From: Bacteroidaceae bacterium
GTDB lineage: Bacteria; Bacteroidota; Bacteroidia; Bacteroidales; Bacteroidaceae
Direction of reading: 5' to 3'
DNA: 64,000 nt
Assembly: GCA_017617235.1 (NCBI GenBank)
Contig: JAFZWQ010000040.1
Coordinates: 1-64,000, forward strand
The position numbers and the translations under genes were made by a program. Under the pieces are notes generated by a model that was not told the DNA's origin, did not search any database, and saw nothing but the letters and a program-made list of their open reading frames with translations. How positions within the stretch are numbered: position 1 is the first letter of the stretch; each line of letters opens with the position of its first letter. Positions 7,492 through 16,790 of the stretch are shown piece after piece.

Positions 7492-8643
7492 ATGAAAAGA
7501 TATTCTATATTTCTACCTGTTTTTCTATTCATGTTTGTAGGCTGCAACCAACAAAAAGGGGAGCAGTTTACCATTGAAGGGTGCATCGCTGAGGCGTGCG
7601 ATACTATGCTGTATCTGGAACACCTTTCACTGGGTGATGGCGTGGTGCAATTGGATAGTATAAAACTCGATGAAACGGGAGATTTTTCGCTTCATGGGCC
7701 TCGTCCGTCGAATCCAGAATTCTATCGTCTCCGTATTGGCATGCAGGTGGTAAACTTAAGTATCGACTCGACAGAAACCGTTCGTGTCGAGGCTCGTCTT
7801 CCCCAAATGGCATTAGGCTATAAGGTGAGTGGCAGCGGAAATTGCGACACTATTCGCATCCTGGCGCTGAAGTTGGATACGCTAACCAAAGCTATTCGTC
7901 GTGTTGCGGACGACCGTTCGTTGATGATTACAGAACGAGAAGAACAGATACAACAACTCATCGATGCTTATAAGACAGACGTAAAGTTGCGTTTTATCCA
8001 AAACCGCTATGGCGCAGCCTCGTCGTATTATGCTATGTTCCAGACCGCTGGTGACCAGATGGTATTTAACCCTGTGAGTGATCCGAGCGATGTAACGTGG
8101 TTTTCTGCCCTTGCAAATTCGTGGGATATGTTGTACCCGGGCAGTTTGCGTGGTGAAAATCTGAAGAATATTGCTTTGCAGGGACGTGGAAACACGCGAC
8201 AGCGGGTGTTCGAGATAGATATGAATAACGAAAAGGTGTCGGAAACAGGCATCATCGATATGGGTTTCCCAGACCGAAATGGACGTGAACGTCGTCTGTC
8301 CGACCTAAAGGGTCAGGTGGTGCTGCTCGACTTTACAGCCTATGGTATAAAAGGATCGCAGGACCGTATTCTGGCCCTGCGACAGCTATACAATAAATAT
8401 CATGCTCGTGGATTGGAGATTTACCAGGTTTCGCTCGATGCCGACGGGCATTTTTGGAAGACCGTTTCTGAATCGCTTCCTTGGATTTGTGTCTGGGACA
8501 GCGAAGGGTTACAAAACGATATAGTCTCCATCTACAATCTGCAGACCCTGCCCACTTGGTTTCTCGTAGACCGTGGCTCTAACTTGGTAGGGCGCATGGA
8601 ATTCCTCGACAACCTGGAGCAGGAAATTCAGCGCTTGCTTTAA
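7492..8643 (+). CDS. Thioredoxin-like (TlpA/DUF4369) lipoprotein lacking the CxxC active site
   Basis: A 383-residue lipoprotein: the hydrophobic leader ends in FVGC with the lipidated Cys at residue 18. The N-terminal half (FTIEGCIAEACDTMLYLEHL...) fits the DUF4369 beta domain found in Bacteroidota TlpA-type proteins. The C-terminal half is a thioredoxin fold (LKGQVVLLDFTAYG ... LQTLPTWFLVDRGSNLVGR). At the position where a WCxxC redox motif is expected the sequence is DFTAYGIKGSQDR, so no redox cysteines are present. It is therefore unlikely to be an oxidoreductase; a binding or structural role is inference. The gene is convergent with the SGNH hydrolase and overlaps it by 4 nt. Confidence 0.85.
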   Translation: MKRYSIFLPVFLFMFVGCNQQKGEQFTIEGCIAEACDTMLYLEHLSLGDGVVQLDSIKLDETGDFSLHGPRPSNPEFYRLRIGMQVVNLSIDSTETVRVEARLPQMALGYKVSGSGNCDTIRILALKLDTLTKAIRRVADDRSLMITEREEQIQQLIDAYKTDVKLRFIQNRYGAASSYYAMFQTAGDQMVFNPVSDPSDVTWFSALANSWDMLYPGSLRGENLKNIALQGRGNTRQRVFEIDMNNEKVSETGIIDMGFPDRNGRERRLSDLKGQVVLLDFTAYGIKGSQDRILALRQLYNKYHARGLEIYQVSLDADGHFWKTVSESLPWICVWDSEGLQNDIVSIYNLQTLPTWFLVDRGSNLVGRMEFLDNLEQEIQRLL

Positions 8644-9341
8644 CGTAACTTCTGGATAACGGGGAGCAACAGGCTCTCCATCACCTCGTAGCCCTTCACG
8701 TTGGGGTGAACGGCGGGAGTATCCTCGCCCAACTCGGGTTTCATGCCACTTCCGTCTTCGGCAACTAATGCGCTGAAGTAATCTACATACGGAATCTTGT
8801 TGGCTTTGGCATAAGCCTTTACGCGCTCGTTCAAGTGACGGATTTTGTCCATAGCATCCGTGATTTGGGGATGCCAGCAGAAACCTCCAGCGGGCAGACA
8901 ACTCGTGAGGATGACCTTGCACTTGTGGTAGCGGGCCAGTTCCACCATCGACAATACGTTTCCATAGGTCAGGTCTTCGTCATATGCACCGGTATTTTCA
9001 GCGATATCGTTAGTACCATAGTTAATAACTACCACCTTGGGTTGAAGGTTGATAACATCCTCGCGGAAACGCAGCAAGAACTGATAACTGGTCTGACCAC
9101 CGATACCGCGACCAATCAGGTTGTTATCCTTGAAAAATGCAGGTCTTTTACCTGGCCATCCATCGGTGATGGAGTTACCCATCAATACCACACGCTTCTC
9201 ACCTTTCTTGGGGGCACCAAGTTCCTTGTTCTGCTGGGCATAGCGCTTCCAGTTTCCAAACTCGTGCTTCTGTGCCCATACTCCGTTTGCACTCACCAGC
9301 CAAAGCAGCAGGGCCATACCTGCCATTTTCAGTCTGTTCAT
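8640..9341 (-). CDS. Secreted SGNH/GDSL hydrolase
   Basis: A 233-residue exported esterase-type enzyme, with signal peptide cleavage after VWAQ. The four SGNH blocks are visible: GNSITDG with the nucleophile Ser57, the Gly block GGQTS (about 81-85), GTND with Asn111, and the C-terminal Asp/His block DTPAVHPN. In gut Bacteroidota such enzymes often deacetylate sugars or glycans; the substrate here is not determined. The promoter is the minus-strand box at 9417-9424, giving a leader of about 70 nt with a small palindrome (GTTTCA...TGAAA). Its stop overlaps the end of the convergent TlpA-like gene. Confidence 0.9.
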   Translation of the reverse strand: MNRLKMAGMALLLWLVSANGVWAQKHEFGNWKRYAQQNKELGAPKKGEKRVVLMGNSITDGWPGKRPAFFKDNNLIGRGIGGQTSYQFLLRFREDVINLQPKVVVINYGTNDIAENTGAYDEDLTYGNVLSMVELARYHKCKVILTSCLPAGGFCWHPQITDAMDKIRHLNERVKAYAKANKIPYVDYFSALVAEDGSGMKPELGEDTPAVHPNVKGYEVMESLLLPVIQKLR

Positions 9342-9520: not shown

Positions 9521-9528
9521 TAGATTTG
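9521..9528 (+). promoter_or_regulatory. -7 box TAGATTTG for the SPFH operon
   Basis: The only clear TAnnTTTG upstream of the six-gene cluster, 31 nt before the ATG at 9560. No further promoter or terminator is evident until 16790. Confidence 0.55.
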
Positions 9529-9559
9529 TGCTCGTTATATACCTAAAAACACCTATAAT

Positions 9560-10849
9560 ATGGCCATTATTGATTTAGTTAGCTGGACTCCGCGTGATCC
9601 GCGTGAAGAGACCATTTTTGCCTATCGTTTTCCCGAAACGAATCTTTCGACCTGGACACAGCTCCTCGTACAGGAGTCGCAGGAGGCCGTGCTTTTCTCT
9701 AAAGGACGCCTGCTGCAGAAGTTCGGTCCGGGTAAGCACACCTTGGATTCAGAAAATATTCCTTTGTTGCGTAACCTCTTCGGCATTCCCTTTGGAGGTA
9801 AGAATCCTTTCATGGCCGAGGTATGGTTTGTGAATAAAATTCTGCCGTCCAATCTGGAGTGGGCTGTCGACAGCATGGCCACCGAGGATGTCGACTATAA
9901 GGTACAGATACCTTTGGTGGCCAGTGGTCGTTATGGGTTGAGAGTTGTGGATGCTGAGCGCTTCCTGGTTCGTCTGGTGGGTACGCGTTCCGAGTTCACC
10001 GAAAGAGACCTTACCGACCAGGCTTATGGTGAGTTTGCGACAAAAACCAAGTCCAGCATCGTATCGTTTATGCGAGACAACCGCATCGGATATAAATCCA
10101 TATCTGGCTATCTGGATCAACTCTCGCAATTCCTGAAAGAAGCCACCCGTGGATTCTGGAGCGAGATAGGACTTGAACTCACCAAGTTCTATGTGACAGG
10201 CATCGATATCGATACTTCGACGGAAGCCGGTCGCCGTGTTCACGAGGCTATTTCGCAGCAGAGTGCTCAGTCCATAACAGGACGTACTTGGCAGCAGGAG
10301 CAGATGTTCGGTGTGGCTCAGGAGGCTGTTCAAGGCATGGGACGTGGAACCGGTGGCGGCATGCTGGGTGGTATTATGGCCTTGGGCATGATGAATGGAA
10401 TGGGTGGCGGCATGGGCACCGGCATGATGAATCCTCAGTATAACCAGCCCACTTTTAATGCCCAAGGTGGCGGTCAGCAGACAGGTTTTGTTCAGGACGG
10501 TCAGCAGGTTCCTCAGGGACAGTTGCGCATGGTCTATTGTTCGAACTGTGCCAAGAAATATCCCAGTACCTCGAAGTTCTGTCCGTATTGCGGCGACCCC
10601 TACAATCCATGTCCCAATTGCGGAGCCGACAATGCCGAGGGCGCACGCCGCTGTGTCAGCTGTGGCGCTACTTTGCAGCAAGCTCAGGATCGTTGTCCCA
10701 ACTGCGGACAACCCGTTATGCCCGGCATGACTTTCTGCGGCAACTGCGGAGCACAGATTATCACGGCCAATTTCGTATGCAGCCGTTGTGGCACACCTAT
10801 GCCGGCTAATGTAAAGTTCTGCCCCAAGTGCGGCAAAAAGCGTGATTAA
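9560..10849 (+). CDS. SPFH-domain protein with four C-terminal zinc ribbons
   Basis: A 429-residue protein, first gene of an unrecognised operon. Residues about 25-230 form an SPFH/band-7 domain of the 'virion core protein'/YdjI type (LFSKGRLLQKFGPGKHTL, DVDYKVQIPLVASGRYGLRV, YVTGIDIDTS). There is no N-terminal membrane helix, so membrane contact would be peripheral. A Gly/Met-rich linker (about 255-300) leads to eight CxxC motifs in about 90 residues (CSNC, CPYC, CPNC, CVSC, CPNC, CGNC, CSRC, CPKC), i.e. four treble-clef or ribbon zinc sites. In Bacillus the YdjI relative works with a PspA-type protein in membrane stress; no PspA is present here, so the partners must be the genes downstream. 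Confidence 0.88.
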   Translation: MAIIDLVSWTPRDPREETIFAYRFPETNLSTWTQLLVQESQEAVLFSKGRLLQKFGPGKHTLDSENIPLLRNLFGIPFGGKNPFMAEVWFVNKILPSNLEWAVDSMATEDVDYKVQIPLVASGRYGLRVVDAERFLVRLVGTRSEFTERDLTDQAYGEFATKTKSSIVSFMRDNRIGYKSISGYLDQLSQFLKEATRGFWSEIGLELTKFYVTGIDIDTSTEAGRRVHEAISQQSAQSITGRTWQQEQMFGVAQEAVQGMGRGTGGGMLGGIMALGMMNGMGGGMGTGMMNPQYNQPTFNAQGGGQQTGFVQDGQQVPQGQLRMVYCSNCAKKYPSTSKFCPYCGDPYNPCPNCGADNAEGARRCVSCGATLQQAQDRCPNCGQPVMPGMTFCGNCGAQIITANFVCSRCGTPMPANVKFCPKCGKKRD

Positions 10850-10884
10850 CGCGATTCGATTGTAACCTTACAAACTATACGAAT

Positions 10885-11568
10885 ATGAGAGACGCATTAA
10901 AATTTGTTGCCTGCCTCATTGGTGCAGGTGTTATTATCGGAGCATTTCTGCTATTCGGTCGTCCTGGGCTGTCCGATAAGGAGTTGGCTTTGGACATCGT
11001 GGTTTCCCTCATCGTCTATGGCTTGTTTGTCGTAGATATTTTCGTTCCCTGGCTCGACCTTGGCGATAAAGCCCAGCGCAAGGTGGGCTCTTTGGGACTG
11101 CGTTGGACCATAAACTGGCTGTATGCCATACTGGCCATCGTTGTCATGTTCCTGAGTGCCAAACTGGACTGGGCTCTCAGTACGCAGTTGCTCATCCATG
11201 CCGCCCTGCTGGGGCTGTTGGCTCTGGGTTATTCGGGTGTCTTCGGAATGAACGACAAGGTGGCCAGCGTGTATGCTCGCGAAGAGGCTATGCGCAGTTC
11301 GCTCGAGGAACTGAAGAGCAGCGTAAACAGCCTGTTGTTGGAACACGAGATTGCCGATATCAACCTGCGTCAGCGTATCGAAGCCCTGAAAGAAGACCTA
11401 CGCTACACCTCGTCCAGCGACAATGGCGAAACACGCAGTCTCGAGGAACGCATCCTGAAACTCGTCGGTTCGTTGAATGCCGCATTGAATGCCGAAAATA
11501 CAGACGAAGCATCGGCTCTGCTGAATAAACTGGAGAAGTTGGTGAAGGAGCGAAAGCAGAGCTACTAA
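10885..11568 (+). CDS. Polytopic membrane protein with cytoplasmic coiled coil
   Basis: A 227-residue protein, second gene of the SPFH operon (35 nt after it). Four hydrophobic segments are visible: FVACLIGAGVIIGAFLLF, ALDIVVSLIVYGLFVVDIFV, WTINWLYAILAIVVMFL and LLIHAALLGLLALGYSGVF. They are followed by about 100 residues of charged helix (EEAMRSSLEELKSSVNSLLL...). The last about 35 residues (ILKLVGSLNAALNAENTDEA...) resemble a small helical bundle. I do not recognise the family. A membrane anchor or scaffold for the neighbouring coiled-coil proteins is inference from context. Confidence 0.8.
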   Translation: MRDALKFVACLIGAGVIIGAFLLFGRPGLSDKELALDIVVSLIVYGLFVVDIFVPWLDLGDKAQRKVGSLGLRWTINWLYAILAIVVMFLSAKLDWALSTQLLIHAALLGLLALGYSGVFGMNDKVASVYAREEAMRSSLEELKSSVNSLLLEHEIADINLRQRIEALKEDLRYTSSSDNGETRSLEERILKLVGSLNAALNAENTDEASALLNKLEKLVKERKQSY

Positions 11569-11621
11569 AGCGCAAACGAGATTTTATAATACCTTAAATA
11601 ATTTAATATAACACTAATGCC

Positions 11622-13805
11622 ATGACGGGAAAAGTATTTGCTCAGTCGGAGAATGTTTACCAAGATCAGGCTAAACTGCTGTTCGACTATTACATGAGGT
11701 CGGCCGAGAAGATTGTCCAGGAAGAAGAACGCCTGGAAAAAGTAATTGCTGACCTGGAGAAACAGAAAAAACGTATCGAAGATGAAATTGCCAGTCTTTG
11801 GTGGTGGCCTTACACCATCATCCTTTTCATCTTCTATTATTTCAAGAAGAAAGGTCTGCAGAAACAAATCGATGACATTGAACCCCGTATCAAGGAGTTC
11901 AAGAAACAGTACGACGAAATTTTCCGCGACTACAAGATAACGAAGATGGGTGTTGTCTATACCCCCGTTGCCAACCAGGTGAAATACGAGGACGAAAGTT
12001 TCATCGTGGATTATACGGGAAGCGTGCCCGAATCGGAAGTAACGTTGCAGATGTCGCGCCAGAACGACCTGCTGGTAGAGACAATTGCCGACCTGGAGAA
12101 ACTGTCGAGCGAGGCACCTCTCGTAGAGACGTCCGAGGATACCGAAACCGTGGAAACGGCCGATTATTCACCCTCTATCCAGGAAATCAACCAGCACGAC
12201 TATTTTGGTAAGCTCGACCATTCGTTGCGTACCATCGCATACTGCATGGACGACCTGGATACATCATCTGTATCACTTCCTCTGGTCAGCAACAACAGCG
12301 ACTATCAGGCCTTCCTGAACGAATTTGCCACCAAGGACCTGCCCGAAGGCGCTGCTGTGCTGAAGGTGTTCGACGACCAGCGTTATGAAAAGGGCATCAG
12401 CAAGTTCCAGGAGTTGAATGCACTGAAGGATTCGCTGTCCACGAAAACCAAGCAATTCGAAGATGTACTGAAGGAACTGATGGTGACTATGGCCGGTTCT
12501 GTTCAGGCCATTTCATCGCTGAAGGTAGCCTCTGTGGACAAGGTAGTGCTGGAATCGAACAAACTGCTTTACCAGATACTGAAAGCACCCTACAACCACT
12601 ATTCACCCGTATTGGAGCACGACGAGATAGAACGTATCCGTATGGAGCGCTTCGACTATAGCGACGATGTGCAAGGCTACGAACCATTCCAGTTGCGTAC
12701 CAGCAGTCGCGTCCGCTTCAATATGGCTTCGGGCATGTGGACAGCTGAAGATGGTTCCACCACGACGATGCCTTTCGGCGTTCATCAGATTTACGAGGAA
12801 ATTGTGGCTCCCGTAGTACAGAACCTGATGGCAGAGAACCGCATCGAACGCCTGAAGATATACAACCACATCCGCGACCAGAAGCTCGACTATCTGAACA
12901 AGTGGCACCAGGATACAGATGCCTTCTATCGTGCCAACCGTGCCGAGAGTTCGCAGCTCATCAGTCAGATGCAGGAGACCCTGCGCGAATATGTGGCAGC
13001 CTACAACACCCTCATCTCGTTGCAGCAGACCGAGGCCAACATGCAACAGTCTCAGTCGTTGGATGCCACGAAGGTGGATGTTGTGGACAATACCGCAGAA
13101 ACCATTGCCACGTTCGAGACCAAATCAGCACAGTTCCGTCAGACCCAGGACGAGTTCGAGGAATACATCGAGCGTCTGAAGGAAGATATCGACCAGAAGG
13201 CCGTGAAGTTCGAACATATAGAATACTACGATGCCAAGTTGCGCGATTCGCACTTCAACGATGCCGCTGTGGCTTCCAGCCCTGCAGCCATCAACGAACT
13301 CGACGACCGAAGCCGTCCATTGGCTCTGGCCAACCCGTTGCTGGCCCGCACATCGCAGTTGCTCCCGCAGCCTAAGGTGGATGATGTTGCCTACGAACAC
13401 TTCTCGCTGAACCTGCCCGGACTGGCCCAGCGTGCATTGGAGGATTTGGATGCGATGTTGCAGACTGGCGACCCCGATGCTGCCAACAGTCGTTACGAGG
13501 AGCCTGAACCCGAGGTCGAAGAACCCGAGGAGGAGTCTGCTGAAGAACCTGTAGCCGATGAGGAGGAGCAGGCTGTCGAAGACGGGGTTTCCGAGGATGA
13601 GGCAGAGGACGAAGTTGCCAGTGACGAAGAAGAGGAATATGAACCCTATACCGAGGAGGAACTGAACGAATATTCCGACGACGACCTGAAGGCCATTCTC
13701 GATGAGTACTTCGAAGACTACGACTTCGACACCTACGACCGTCAGCAGGCCATCGCCGATATCCTCCAGGCACAGGAAGACGCAGAGAGTGAAGAAGAAA
13801 GTTAA
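11622..13805 (+). CDS. Large coiled-coil membrane protein with acidic HeH-like C-terminus
   Basis: A 727-residue protein, third gene of the operon. The N-terminal coiled coil (residues about 20-60) and a second helix (about 82-105) flank one hydrophobic stretch, SLWWWPYTIILFIFYYF, giving one membrane segment or hairpin. Long helical and coiled regions follow (about 300-570). A low-complexity acidic segment (about 625-685, mostly E/D/P/A/V) precedes the final about 45 residues: EEELNEYSDDDLKAILDEYF and IADILQAQ. That spacing of helices resembles SAP/HeH/LEM-type motifs, which is inference only. No enzymatic motif is seen, and I do not recognise the family. Its size and central position suggest it is the scaffold of the system. 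Confidence 0.8.
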   Translation: MTGKVFAQSENVYQDQAKLLFDYYMRSAEKIVQEEERLEKVIADLEKQKKRIEDEIASLWWWPYTIILFIFYYFKKKGLQKQIDDIEPRIKEFKKQYDEIFRDYKITKMGVVYTPVANQVKYEDESFIVDYTGSVPESEVTLQMSRQNDLLVETIADLEKLSSEAPLVETSEDTETVETADYSPSIQEINQHDYFGKLDHSLRTIAYCMDDLDTSSVSLPLVSNNSDYQAFLNEFATKDLPEGAAVLKVFDDQRYEKGISKFQELNALKDSLSTKTKQFEDVLKELMVTMAGSVQAISSLKVASVDKVVLESNKLLYQILKAPYNHYSPVLEHDEIERIRMERFDYSDDVQGYEPFQLRTSSRVRFNMASGMWTAEDGSTTTMPFGVHQIYEEIVAPVVQNLMAENRIERLKIYNHIRDQKLDYLNKWHQDTDAFYRANRAESSQLISQMQETLREYVAAYNTLISLQQTEANMQQSQSLDATKVDVVDNTAETIATFETKSAQFRQTQDEFEEYIERLKEDIDQKAVKFEHIEYYDAKLRDSHFNDAAVASSPAAINELDDRSRPLALANPLLARTSQLLPQPKVDDVAYEHFSLNLPGLAQRALEDLDAMLQTGDPDAANSRYEEPEPEVEEPEEESAEEPVADEEEQAVEDGVSEDEAEDEVASDEEEEYEPYTEEELNEYSDDDLKAILDEYFEDYDFDTYDRQQAIADILQAQEDAESEEES

Positions 13806-13825
13806 CCCCTAAGACCTTTCACATT

Positions 13826-14755
13826 ATGGCAAATATAGATTGCGTAATCGACACCCATCCAATGGCCAATGAGATGAATTCCATCTCTCACCATGTGACG
13901 GGAACCACCACGGCTGTCGTTGCTATGAAGGCAGCTGTGATAAAAGCCGAAAGCGAAGCTGCCGAACATGTCTGCAACAATGTGAACCGTGGTTTCTACA
14001 CCCTCATCCGTTCGCAGATTTCTCAGAAGACAGCAAAGCTTACCAGCCAAGTGGACTCGCTAATCATGCAGTTGCAGCAGCAGACGCGTATGCTGATGAA
14101 TATCAAGACGCGCATGGAGCACGACTACAACATGATTACAGCCCGCTATACCAAGCTCTTCGGTACCCTGAATCAGAGTCTGAAACAACGTATCTACGAG
14201 TTGGACCGTCCTACATTTGACTTTGCAGAGCGCGACCTGGAACTGATTTCCAACCGTCCGCGTCAGCTGACCTCGACAGTACCCCTGTCCCAATTGGAAT
14301 CGCTGACGATGAGCCAGCGCATTGCCGCTTCCAACGTTAAGCATCATGCACTGGAGGTTATCGACACCATGTCGTCCTTCTTGGTAGGTATGGCCAACCA
14401 GAAGAAGCTGACCAGCCGTATTCTGTTGCGCCAGCCTGCAGCAAAGCCCAGCGCCCTGTACATGTTGCCGAACATCGTATCGGAAGCATGCATCGACAAG
14501 TCGGGAGCTACAACGACCAACGTGGTGGCCAATGCCAATGGTATCACCCCTCAGGCTGTAGCTGCTACACGTAGCCGTGTGCTCGACCAAGTTAGCCAGT
14601 TGCCCTGGAAACAGACCAGGGAAATCAGTAGCGAGATACAGAACGAGTTCAACCGGCTACTCTCTGCCTCACAGGCCAACGAGCGTGTGAAGGAAATGGC
14701 GCGTGCGCTCTTCCAGAAGAACAGTTTTGAAACCCTCAACACCGCTGCATCATGA
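13826..14755 (+). CDS. Coiled-coil protein, paralogue A of a tandem pair
   Basis: A 309-residue soluble, mostly helical protein; fourth gene, 20 nt after the third. The region about residues 55-140 (FYTLIRSQISQKTAKLTSQV, YTKLFGTLNQSLKQRIYELD) aligns with the next gene's FFKTIGSEISQQINELTNEV and YIKVFDTLNTELKNRIHEID, so the two are paralogues. No signal peptide or membrane segment is present. The C-terminus NERVKEMARALFQKN also matches the partner's DERVRETMLNLFSNN. Unknown function; a heteromeric coiled-coil pair is inference. It overlaps the next gene by 4 nt (ATGA), implying translational coupling. Confidence 0.8.
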   Translation: MANIDCVIDTHPMANEMNSISHHVTGTTTAVVAMKAAVIKAESEAAEHVCNNVNRGFYTLIRSQISQKTAKLTSQVDSLIMQLQQQTRMLMNIKTRMEHDYNMITARYTKLFGTLNQSLKQRIYELDRPTFDFAERDLELISNRPRQLTSTVPLSQLESLTMSQRIAASNVKHHALEVIDTMSSFLVGMANQKKLTSRILLRQPAAKPSALYMLPNIVSEACIDKSGATTTNVVANANGITPQAVAATRSRVLDQVSQLPWKQTREISSEIQNEFNRLLSASQANERVKEMARALFQKNSFETLNTAAS

Positions 14756-15777
14756 GTTACACCAGAACTGTAAGTAAACCTATCACCCTCTACTATTCGA
14801 GGACGGTTAGTTATCCGGCTTCACAGAATGGCGGCACCATCAATGTCAGCGGTTCGGTGACGGAGACGGTGAACGTGAATGTGCACGTCGATACCACCCC
14901 CTTCGACAGTAGCGTGTCAGGCTGTAACCAGCAGGTGAACATCCTGACGGGTGCTGTTGCCGCTACGGAGGCGGCTCAGGTGGCGTCGGTGGATGCCAAT
15001 TCCAAACGTGTGGCATCGACCATCATCAATGGTTTCTTCAAGACCATCGGTTCGGAAATCAGCCAGCAAATCAACGAGTTGACCAATGAGGTGGAATCGT
15101 TGGCCATGCATCTGGTGGAACTGACGAAACGTTGTCTGGAGAAACAGAACCAGATGGGTGTCGACTATCAGCGCATCTGTCAGCGTTACATTAAGGTTTT
15201 CGACACGTTGAATACGGAGTTGAAGAACCGCATTCACGAGATAGACCAACCCGTCTTTAAATTCCGCGAGCAGGCCGATGCCTATGCACAAAAGGGTTCG
15301 GATAGCGATATGGTAAGTACCGTAGTGGTAACGGGCAGCGAGGAGGCCAAACTGCAGGCACATCTGTCGTCGGCCACCCTGAAGTATCAGGCTTCGGAAA
15401 TGCTGCACCATGCCAGCGAATACCTCTATCGTCAGCGCGACATGCGCAGCACCATCGCCCACCATATGTTCCAGGACGACGAGGGCAGCTACTATGTACC
15501 GTTGATGATGACCGAACGTGTTGGTGAAGATGGTGTGAAGTCCACCTTCCTCTACTCTCCGAAGACCATTTCCAAGTCTCTGGACAATGGGGCGGTGTGC
15601 GACCAGATAGAGCATCGCCAATGGGAACCCGTGAGTGATGCCGAACAGGAGCGTGTGGCCAATTACTTCAATGCCGAAGTAAGCAGTCATTTCGCCTCTC
15701 CTTCGGCACACGATGAACGGGTACGCGAAACGATGCTCAACCTGTTTTCCAACAACCGCATCAAGCGGGTGAAGTGA
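14752..15777 (+). CDS. Coiled-coil protein, paralogue B of a tandem pair
   Basis: A 341-residue protein, fifth gene of the operon, starting inside the stop of paralogue A. The N-terminal about 60 residues are beta-like and Ser/Thr/Val-rich (GGTINVSGSVTETVNVNVHV) and absent from paralogue A. The core (about 90-185) and the C-terminal NERV/DERV motif are shared. A mid-region MFQDDEGSYYVPLMMTERVG has a counterpart in LPNIVSEACIDKSG of the partner. There is no membrane segment. A short A/T repeat tract follows the stop and separates it from the bactofilin-like gene. Function unknown. Confidence 0.8.
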   Translation: MSYTRTVSKPITLYYSRTVSYPASQNGGTINVSGSVTETVNVNVHVDTTPFDSSVSGCNQQVNILTGAVAATEAAQVASVDANSKRVASTIINGFFKTIGSEISQQINELTNEVESLAMHLVELTKRCLEKQNQMGVDYQRICQRYIKVFDTLNTELKNRIHEIDQPVFKFREQADAYAQKGSDSDMVSTVVVTGSEEAKLQAHLSSATLKYQASEMLHHASEYLYRQRDMRSTIAHHMFQDDEGSYYVPLMMTERVGEDGVKSTFLYSPKTISKSLDNGAVCDQIEHRQWEPVSDAEQERVANYFNAEVSSHFASPSAHDERVRETMLNLFSNNRIKRVK

Positions 15778-15824
15778 AAAGTGAGAAATTAAAAGTGAAA
15801 AATTAAAAGTGTGAAGTGAGAAAT
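15778..15824. repeat. A/T-rich repeat between the fifth and sixth genes of the SPFH operon
   Basis: Mixed AATTAAAAGTGAAAA and GTGAAGTGAGAA units fill the whole gap up to the ATG at 15825. They provide the only possible ribosome-binding region for the next gene. Confidence 0.75.
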
Positions 15825-16790
15825 ATGGAAGAACTGAAAGAATTGCGCTTCAACGGGAAGGGCGTGAAGCTGGACAATAACAGAGTAAAGGGTGGCATTC
15901 TGCCCGAGAAAATCGACGAGTTGAACCGCGATGTCACCATCGAGGGGACTACCGTCATCGAAGGGGCTGTCTATGCCCATAAATTCGAGGTGAACAACGG
16001 ACCGCTGGAAGTGCAGGGGGCTGTGTTCACGCAACTGGAGTTGTATGTAAACACATCGGCAACGGGCGAAATTACCTTCCGCAAGGCCGTGGGCTCGTCG
16101 AATTCGATAACTTCGCGTGCCGCAGGCTGCAAACTGGTGTTTGCCTCCGATGTCAATGCCAAGCAGGTAACCCTCTACAATGCCTTTGTGGCCGGTAGCA
16201 TATATGCCGACGATATCACGTTGGAGAATTGTGTCGTTATCGGTGGCGTCTTTGCCACGCAGCAAATCGACCTCACGGGAAGCATCGTGGGCACATTTAA
16301 TGCACCTTATGTTCACATTTCAGGCATCAACCACCTGCTGTTGCCCAGCGCTTTCTCCATCGAGAAACTGTCTGTGGCTCCAGGTGCCCGCCTCTTCAAT
16401 CTGGCTCTGGCCGACCTGGGTGCTCTGTACCGTGGTGTCGAGCAGTCGATAAATTCGGGCCGCATAGAGATGGATGTCGATGCCGATGAATTGAAGTCGT
16501 CGCTGACCGACGAGGATGTGCAGAAGACGTTGCGCTGTTACTCAGTTGTGGGCAAGGTGCTGGCTGCCGACCTCATCGATACCGACAAGTTCCAGAACCA
16601 CTTCCTGCTGACGGCTGCTGCCCTGGGTCCCCAGTTGCTGAAGAGCTACGATATGGGCAAGGATGCAAAGGGAAATCCTGTACCCCTCAGCATCGAGCGT
16701 ATCCGCGACTTCTTCTTCGAGGTAATGGCCGGTAAGGTGGAGATACGTACTATCGACGGCCACTTCGATGTGTCGCAGCTCATGCGCTGA
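15825..16790 (+). CDS. Bactofilin-like/polymer-forming beta-helix protein
   Basis: A 321-residue protein, last gene of the SPFH operon. A GTG nine bases upstream is in frame but lies in the repeat; ATG 15825 (MEELKELRFNGKG) is the better start. Residues about 35-180 have the periodic short hydrophobic/Gly turns of a right-handed beta helix (DVTIEGTTVIEGAVYAHKFE, GSIYADDITLENCVVIGGVF, IDLTGSIVGTF), as in bactofilins (DUF583). The C-terminal half (about 200-320) is alpha/beta with no recognised motif. Bactofilins form filaments at membranes, so a cytoskeletal or scaffold role in the operon is plausible but inferred. Confidence 0.75.
   Translation: MEELKELRFNGKGVKLDNNRVKGGILPEKIDELNRDVTIEGTTVIEGAVYAHKFEVNNGPLEVQGAVFTQLELYVNTSATGEITFRKAVGSSNSITSRAAGCKLVFASDVNAKQVTLYNAFVAGSIYADDITLENCVVIGGVFATQQIDLTGSIVGTFNAPYVHISGINHLLLPSAFSIEKLSVAPGARLFNLALADLGALYRGVEQSINSGRIEMDVDADELKSSLTDEDVQKTLRCYSVVGKVLAADLIDTDKFQNHFLLTAAALGPQLLKSYDMGKDAKGNPVPLSIERIRDFFFEVMAGKVEIRTIDGHFDVSQLMR

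Follow-up and report, generated by a model that had tools for sequence, protein, structure and literature searches.

A 64,000-nucleotide stretch of DNA from a Bacteroidaceae bacterium (contig JAFZWQ010000040.1, positions 1 to 64,000 of the forward strand; hereafter the window) contains six adjacent genes, designated A to F, which almost certainly form a real unit. The genes encode an SPFH protein with zinc ribbons (A), a protein with four transmembrane segments (B), a 727-residue protein with a putative membrane-binding segment (C), two paralogous proteins (D and E), and a protein with a remote resemblance to bactofilins (F). The unit is accessory, and the best explanation of it, to which a probability of about one half is assigned, is that its products assemble into a protein scaffold that lines the inner membrane on its cytoplasmic side. 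The SPFH-zinc-ribbon module belongs to a known kind; the core of C, D, E, and F is new.

Organization of the unit and its conservation in relatives

All six genes are on the + strand and were confirmed as real open reading frames in the window. The gaps between them are 35 (A-B), 53 (B-C), 20 (C-D), -4 (D-E), and 47 (E-F) nucleotides, which reproduces the tight one-strand spacing claimed in an original prediction made from the window's letters alone. The E-F value presumes that F starts at the ATG at position 15825; a GTG at 15816 opens the mechanically defined reading frame of F.

When 84,980 species genomes were scanned for relatives of C by means of its alignment, 120 were identified, which is a lower bound because the scan used two peptide patterns only, and the best 80 loci were retrieved. 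Two of these, L030 and L071, are from genomes G013 and G048, which belong to the same genus as the window and to another family of the order, respectively; both contain the same six genes in the same order. Profiles of all six genes detected the order ABCDEF on one strand in 59 of the 80 loci, or 60 with the window. Of the remaining 21 loci, 14 run into contig ends and fit this order as far as they are visible, three are broken or unclear, and four are without A and B. Loci L106, L107, and L109 contain C-D-E-F, and neither A nor B was traceable in the 6–10 kb upstream; L104, which resembles L106, shows C-D next to a contig end, and its 775 upstream bases are likewise devoid of A and B. Three of the four genomes of these loci were searched with the profile of A: there was no match in G456 and G458, and G457 gave a weak zinc-ribbon match only. 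Because C-D-E-F is found without A and B, it is regarded as the core of the unit and A+B as a nearly constant second module, which is found beside C-F in 60 of 63 loci, counting the window, where all genes are visible whole. The six-gene order recurs across Bacteroidota, but the six genes are not the minimal set. In one further locus, L091, genes B to F are present and the 209 bases before B hold no trace of A. In L083 (4138–4457), A-B-C is followed by a D that stops at about 45 codons and then by unrelated frames to the contig end, which represents either a disrupted gene or a join made during assembly.

The median gaps between the genes in relatives are 18, 21, 20, 6.5, and 11.5 nucleotides from A-B to E-F, and the largest, of 894 nucleotides, separates B from C in L037. 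For 58 complete sets, the matrices of pairwise distances calculated for each of the six genes correlate with one another at r = 0.80–0.93 (0.91 for A and C), although some correlation is to be expected among genes of one genome anyway. Full-length F occurs in eight of 393 genomes of the order, the window's own included, and a ninth genome contains a fragment at a contig end. D and E are directly beside full-length F in all eight genomes; six of these are genomes of retrieved loci and one is that of the window, and they do not provide independent evidence. Separation of the genes in related genomes, which the original prediction had named as grounds for rejecting the unit, was thus not observed for F. 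The ratio of nonsynonymous to synonymous substitution rates (dN/dS) between the window and L030 is 0.04–0.21 across the six genes; the values are rough because dS is 1.6–3.6, near or past saturation. These ratios and the 60 identical gene orders go beyond what chance would produce.

A candidate -7 promoter element, TAGATTTG (9521–9528, + strand), is positioned 31 nucleotides 5' of gene A and fits the motif TAnnTTTG, which we take to be the Bacteroidetes -7 consensus. Of 69 loci, 36 have the motif in the 150 nucleotides before A, compared with 7.8% of letter shuffles; the other 33 lack it. Scans for sigma-70 promoters and terminators gave no excess over shuffles. The feoAB locus, which comes next after the unit, was considered as a seventh gene of the window operon and rejected. 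It was excluded from the unit because a -7-like motif of its own, TAATTTTG, directly precedes its ATG; in addition, all 41 genus genomes searched gave FeoAB matches, some of them weak GTPase matches, and the stretches of up to 1.5 kb available beside feoAB in the loci of 29 relatives contain none of the six genes.

Proteins encoded by the unit

The 429-residue product of gene A (9560–10849, + strand) consists of an SPFH domain (Pfam Band_7_1, PF13421; E = 3.4e-31, 108.9 bits against a cut-off of 24), a linker rich in Gly and Met, and four zinc ribbons with eight CxxC motifs; zinc-ribbon families exceed their Pfam cut-offs in this C-terminal region. Exactly eight CxxC motifs, and therefore four ribbons, are present in 69 of 70 homologues, which agrees with the SPFH protein originally described. 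According to hydropathy, the protein has no transmembrane segment in the window or in 68 of the 70 homologues. A profile search of the PDB with A gave six matches at E ≤ 0.1, every one of them in the zinc-ribbon region.

Gene B (10885–11568, + strand) encodes a protein with four transmembrane segments and a polar tail ending in a conserved R-K motif. The four segments, which had been predicted as helices, were recovered by hydropathy in the window protein and in 59 of 73 homologues. No Pfam family matches B over its cut-off. The 20 matches of B in a profile search of the PDB, the best of which is to a transmembrane stretch of otopetrin (E = 0.004), were attributed to composition, and homology of B to D was rejected (hhalign E = 0.046, probability 1.2%). 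In G013, gene B (L009, 13141–13584) encodes only 147 residues: it lacks the polar tail but has the membrane part, and the remaining five genes are present.

The 727-residue product of gene C (11622–13805, + strand) has an N-terminal polar region around a putative membrane-binding segment at residues ~58–76, a strongly conserved core that extends to about residue 600, and a variable acidic tail. The window protein has no match over a Pfam or NCBIfam cut-off and none in PHROGs or PADLOC, and the profile of C has no match in the PDB. Homology of C to D or E was rejected (hhalign E = 0.36 and 0.15). The original prediction described C as a single-pass protein. A 19-residue transmembrane segment was not found in the window protein at the threshold used; among 74 copies of C, hydropathy identified one transmembrane segment in 45, none in 28, and two in one. 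The best segment is weakly hydrophobic in nine of 73 copies, and in six relatives (L078, L079, L082, L088, L096, and L097) it is short, polar, and Trp-bearing, a form that is read by eye as an amphipathic helix. The C proteins of L066 and L082 are 94% and 96% identical in the flanks of the segment and 44% identical over 16 aligned residues within it, where a hydrophobic span in one is exchanged for a short polar Trp-bearing segment in the other. It is plausible that the two forms represent two ways of binding a membrane from the same slot. The exchange therefore favours, at the level of sequence, a tip that may dip into the membrane over a fixed transmembrane pass, and the single pass is doubtful, even though most copies show one segment.

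The acidic tail of C could be measured in 61 of the 74 copies. Its net charge is -20 or lower in 47 of these, which bears out the long acidic region of the original prediction in charge but not in constancy, as the length varies from 6 to 282 residues. CxxC pairs are located on the tail in L067, L071, and L083. In L056 (10001–11911), C is split into two open reading frames of 77 and 531 residues about 80 nucleotides apart, owing to a broken gene or an assembly error.

Genes D (13826–14755, + strand; 309 residues) and E (14752–15777, + strand; 341 residues) overlap by four nucleotides and encode paralogous proteins, as had been claimed (hhalign E = 6e-51); E has an additional N-terminal arm of about 40 residues. 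D has no Pfam or NCBIfam match over a cut-off, and E is below every cut-off of the two databases, its best Pfam family being DUF2046 (23.1 bits against 24.7). Profile searches of the PDB with D and E returned no match, and the single weak match of E in PHROGs (E = 0.0075) is the sole one among B, C, D, and E. Weak family matches and inspection suggest that C, D, and E are helical or coiled-coil proteins. B, C, D, and E are all under the Pfam and NCBIfam cut-offs, consistent with the earlier statement that four of the six products belong to no known family.

The 321-residue product of gene F (15825–16790, + strand) has an N-terminal part that remotely resembles bactofilins, followed by a C-terminal domain, ~140 residues long, that is conserved among homologues. 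Residues 11–90 match the Pfam Bactofilin family (PF04519) with 22.4 bits, under the cut-off of 27.9; among 40 homologues of F, 24 match it at E ≤ 0.01, the best at 1.1e-4. The proposed bactofilin-like nature of F thus holds as a remote resemblance, but the window protein itself does not reach the family. In the PDB, the profile of F gave weak matches to bactofilin A (E = 0.14) and to a putative lipoprotein (E = 0.25). The N-terminal part displays a weak periodicity at lags 5–6 and 16 (p = 0.005–0.022, uncorrected for the 28 lags).

Distribution and neighbouring genes

Bacteroidota are the named source of 78 of the 80 loci, and the two others, which carry the names Ignavibacteriae (L083) and Clostridiales (L085), also group with Bacteroidota in the tree of C. 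The carriers span gut and environmental Bacteroidota, among them Labilibaculum filiforme and Barnesiella sp. An55, and the distribution is patchy. D is present in two of 37 genomes of the window's genus (G000–G036), which are 61–92% complete; incompleteness is insufficient to account for the 35 absences. C was found in none of 391 other genomes of the phylum with completeness of at least 90%. No relative of D or E was confirmed in viral contigs, no C was found in phages, and no F in plasmids.

A PNPase-thioredoxin gene pair precedes the operon both in the window and in G013. Gene A was not found beyond this pair in the three nearest relatives with 0.9–1.5 kb of sequence there (L143, L145, and L147). 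The window also has a gene for a GDSL-type lipase (8640–9341) between the thioredoxin-like gene and the operon, which was not found in the corresponding stretch of G013. A fixed genomic site was rejected for the unit, as the flanks of different loci have few families in common. In a tree of C computed by a quick method, the family labels given by submitters are scattered. This suggests transfer and does not prove it, because the names of metagenome-assembled genomes are unreliable and the tree carries two long-branch warnings; horizontal transfer of the unit is nevertheless likely.

A gene on the same strand starts within 220 nucleotides downstream of F in 25 of 70 loci (window included). Nine of these 25 genes start with a CxxC pair, recognized by pattern only (three), or with a GYF_2 domain (six), and the other parts of the proteins include YARHG and SH3_3 domains. 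The protein downstream of F in L033, scanned singly, has a zinc-finger match below the cut-off. All six GYF_2 cases are in one clade of the C tree, and GYF_2, with six occurrences, is the commonest Pfam family in 143 neighbour proteins among the matches listed (25 of 194 families). The window has no such seventh gene starting with CxxC or GYF_2 downstream of F. Three operon neighbours have composite structures. In L071 (6090–7802), about 100 nucleotides upstream of the operon, a 571-residue protein joins a zinc-ribbon-like start, below the cut-off, to all four domains of GldM from the gliding motor and type IX secretion system; in the upstream neighbour in L039, a start of this type is fused to a Fib_succ_major domain; and a 574-residue protein in L105 (5726–7447) contains GYF_2, a zinc ribbon, SH3_3, and an F-like end (profile E = 2e-8, small set).

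SPFH genes of relatives without C-F (for instance L013, L014, L018, L019, and L020) adjoin genes for small membrane-like proteins, CxxC-bearing proteins, or both, which constitutes a recurrent module. The neighbour in L020 scores 25.3 bits with the B profile (small set); whole-genome searches with this profile identified no B in 58 relatives that are not carriers, including G016, the genome of L020. Since SPFH genes outside C-F loci have similar neighbours, A, perhaps together with B, seems to be an offshoot of a widespread type, and the novelty lies in C-D-E-F.

A putative membrane scaffold and its alternatives

The pspA-ydjGHI operon of Bacillus subtilis provides a comparison for the unit. 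YdjI, a soluble SPFH protein, carries a zinc-finger motif, PspA foci are lost without YdjI, and deletion of ydjG or ydjH abolishes the foci of both YdjI and PspA (PMC8581546); the domains given for YdjH/YdjG are TPM and zinc-ribbon/NTF2-like (PMC11237479). Both operons combine a soluble SPFH protein that has a C-terminal zinc finger or ribbon with membrane-integral partners, and A without and B with transmembrane segments would parallel YdjI and the membrane proteins YdjG and YdjH that it needs. In a scan of 33 members of the B family, no TPM or zinc-ribbon/NTF2-like Pfam family matched at E ≤ 0.01. Unlike pspA-ydjGHI, which encodes YdjF/PspA, YdjG, YdjH, and YdjI, the unit has no PspA, and its genes C to F correspond to nothing in that operon. 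The lack of a PspA partner noted in the original prediction extends beyond the six products: PspA (PF04012) was not found in the window's own genome, which is 85.5% complete, or in 33 of 34 carriers searched, most of which are metagenome-assembled genomes of unstated completeness. The one positive carrier is Labilibaculum filiforme, the genome of L066; the control search was positive in nine of 14 known genomes. The best reading of these similarities is that the A+B module resembles YdjI/YdjGH and that PspA has been replaced by a new core.

Two other systems have features in common with the unit. Loci encoding archaeal Meth_adaptin ESCRT proteins also combine SPFH and zinc ribbons with membrane-remodelling partners, and they include a protein with SPFH, coiled-coil, and zinc-ribbon parts (PMC10936438); unlike in these loci, a Vps4 ATPase and an ESCRT-III family were not recognized by sequence among the six products. 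Bactofilins, to which F has its weak profile match, differ in that F is longer and has the conserved C-terminal domain, compared with the short, disordered ends reported for bactofilins (PMC10945521). No description of the operon, or of an SPFH protein together with a bactofilin, was found in the open-licence literature searched, where, as far as titles and the openings of abstracts reveal, none of the reports places all six genes in an already described operon.

In the proposed scaffold, B would serve as the fixed membrane anchor. The soluble SPFH protein A may oligomerize on B, comparable to the dependence of YdjI on YdjG and YdjH, and its four zinc ribbons would provide sites for docking. 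C would bind the membrane through its segment, hydrophobic or amphipathic, which would form the tip of a putative N-terminal helical hairpin, and, together with D and E, form an assembly in the place of PspA, which the bactofilin-like, putatively β-helical part of F could link or extend. In some lineages, the protein encoded by the seventh gene might dock to the scaffold, presumably to A, through its N-terminal zinc-ribbon-like or GYF_2 domain. The most likely role would be the upkeep of the membrane or envelope under stress, or the holding of chosen membrane proteins in one patch. We infer this role, the contacts, the order of assembly, and all folds other than SPFH and zinc ribbon from the sequences. 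The original interpretation is thus supported in part; the single large membrane assembly that it suggested remains a proposal.

Several observations weigh against such a scaffold. A and B are not needed for the core, as they are lacking in L106, L107, and L109, and the tail of B is missing in G013. The 45 copies of C that pass the hydropathy threshold for one transmembrane segment argue for a pass through the membrane instead of a dipping tip, and the hydrophobic moments of the copies with the polar segment (0.44–0.58) are not separated from those of the others listed (0.25–0.57). The periodicity test is uninformative for B, C, D, and E, because it failed even on the transmembrane helices of B.

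The loci without A and B also speak for the view that the operon joins two units, an SPFH and membrane-protein envelope module and an independent C-D-E-F machine, which are co-expressed without forming one complex. The absence of A matches from G456 and G458 and the SPFH genes elsewhere that adjoin small membrane-like or CxxC proteins, one of which scores with the B profile, point in the same direction. However, A and B accompany C-F in nearly all complete loci, the distances of A and C are closely correlated, the CxxC pairs on the tail of C echo the ribbons of A, and no B was found in the non-carriers; two independent units are rather unlikely. A cytoskeletal or cell-shape system of bactofilin type, in which F would be the polymer and the other proteins would recruit it to the membrane, could account for the remote family match and the weak periodicity of F; it is quite improbable, given that the window protein is under the Pfam cut-off and that the C-terminal domain of F is unlike bactofilin ends.

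The patchy distribution, the lack of A beyond the PNPase-thioredoxin pair in the three nearest relatives, and the dissimilar flanks would suit an anti-phage or conflict cassette that guards the membrane, in which a complex of the SPFH protein and C senses or seals damage caused by infection and which probably spread horizontally. Neighbours of the unit match the PADLOC models ZorA, GajB, DpdF, and RTasHel at E ≤ 1e-5, with one protein each among the matches listed (25 of 103 families; 143 of 205 candidate neighbours scanned, without a background rate). However, the helicase and AAA models of PADLOC match housekeeping proteins too, and none of the six products has a PADLOC match at E ≤ 0.01. 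Pfam and NCBIfam revealed no family of nucleases, nucleotidases, proteases, or pores, and the searches of viral contigs, phages, and plasmids were negative. A defence function is a serious rival to the scaffold, though of low probability.

If the preferred reading, the membrane scaffold, is extended, C, D, and E might found a new class of bacterial membrane-remodelling or coat proteins that perform the job of PspA and ESCRT-III in Bacteroidota, with an interchangeable tip on C, the β-helix partner F, and an SPFH cage docking membrane proteins tagged with zinc-ribbon or GYF_2 domains; this extension is tentative and rather doubtful. At about 7.3 kb, the complete unit can be cloned in one piece, and the carriers that lack A and B set the SPFH part apart from the core. 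Four families of proteins, conserved within Bacteroidota but under the Pfam and NCBIfam cut-offs, would gain names, and the unit would provide a PspA-free test case for the organization of bacterial membranes by SPFH proteins.

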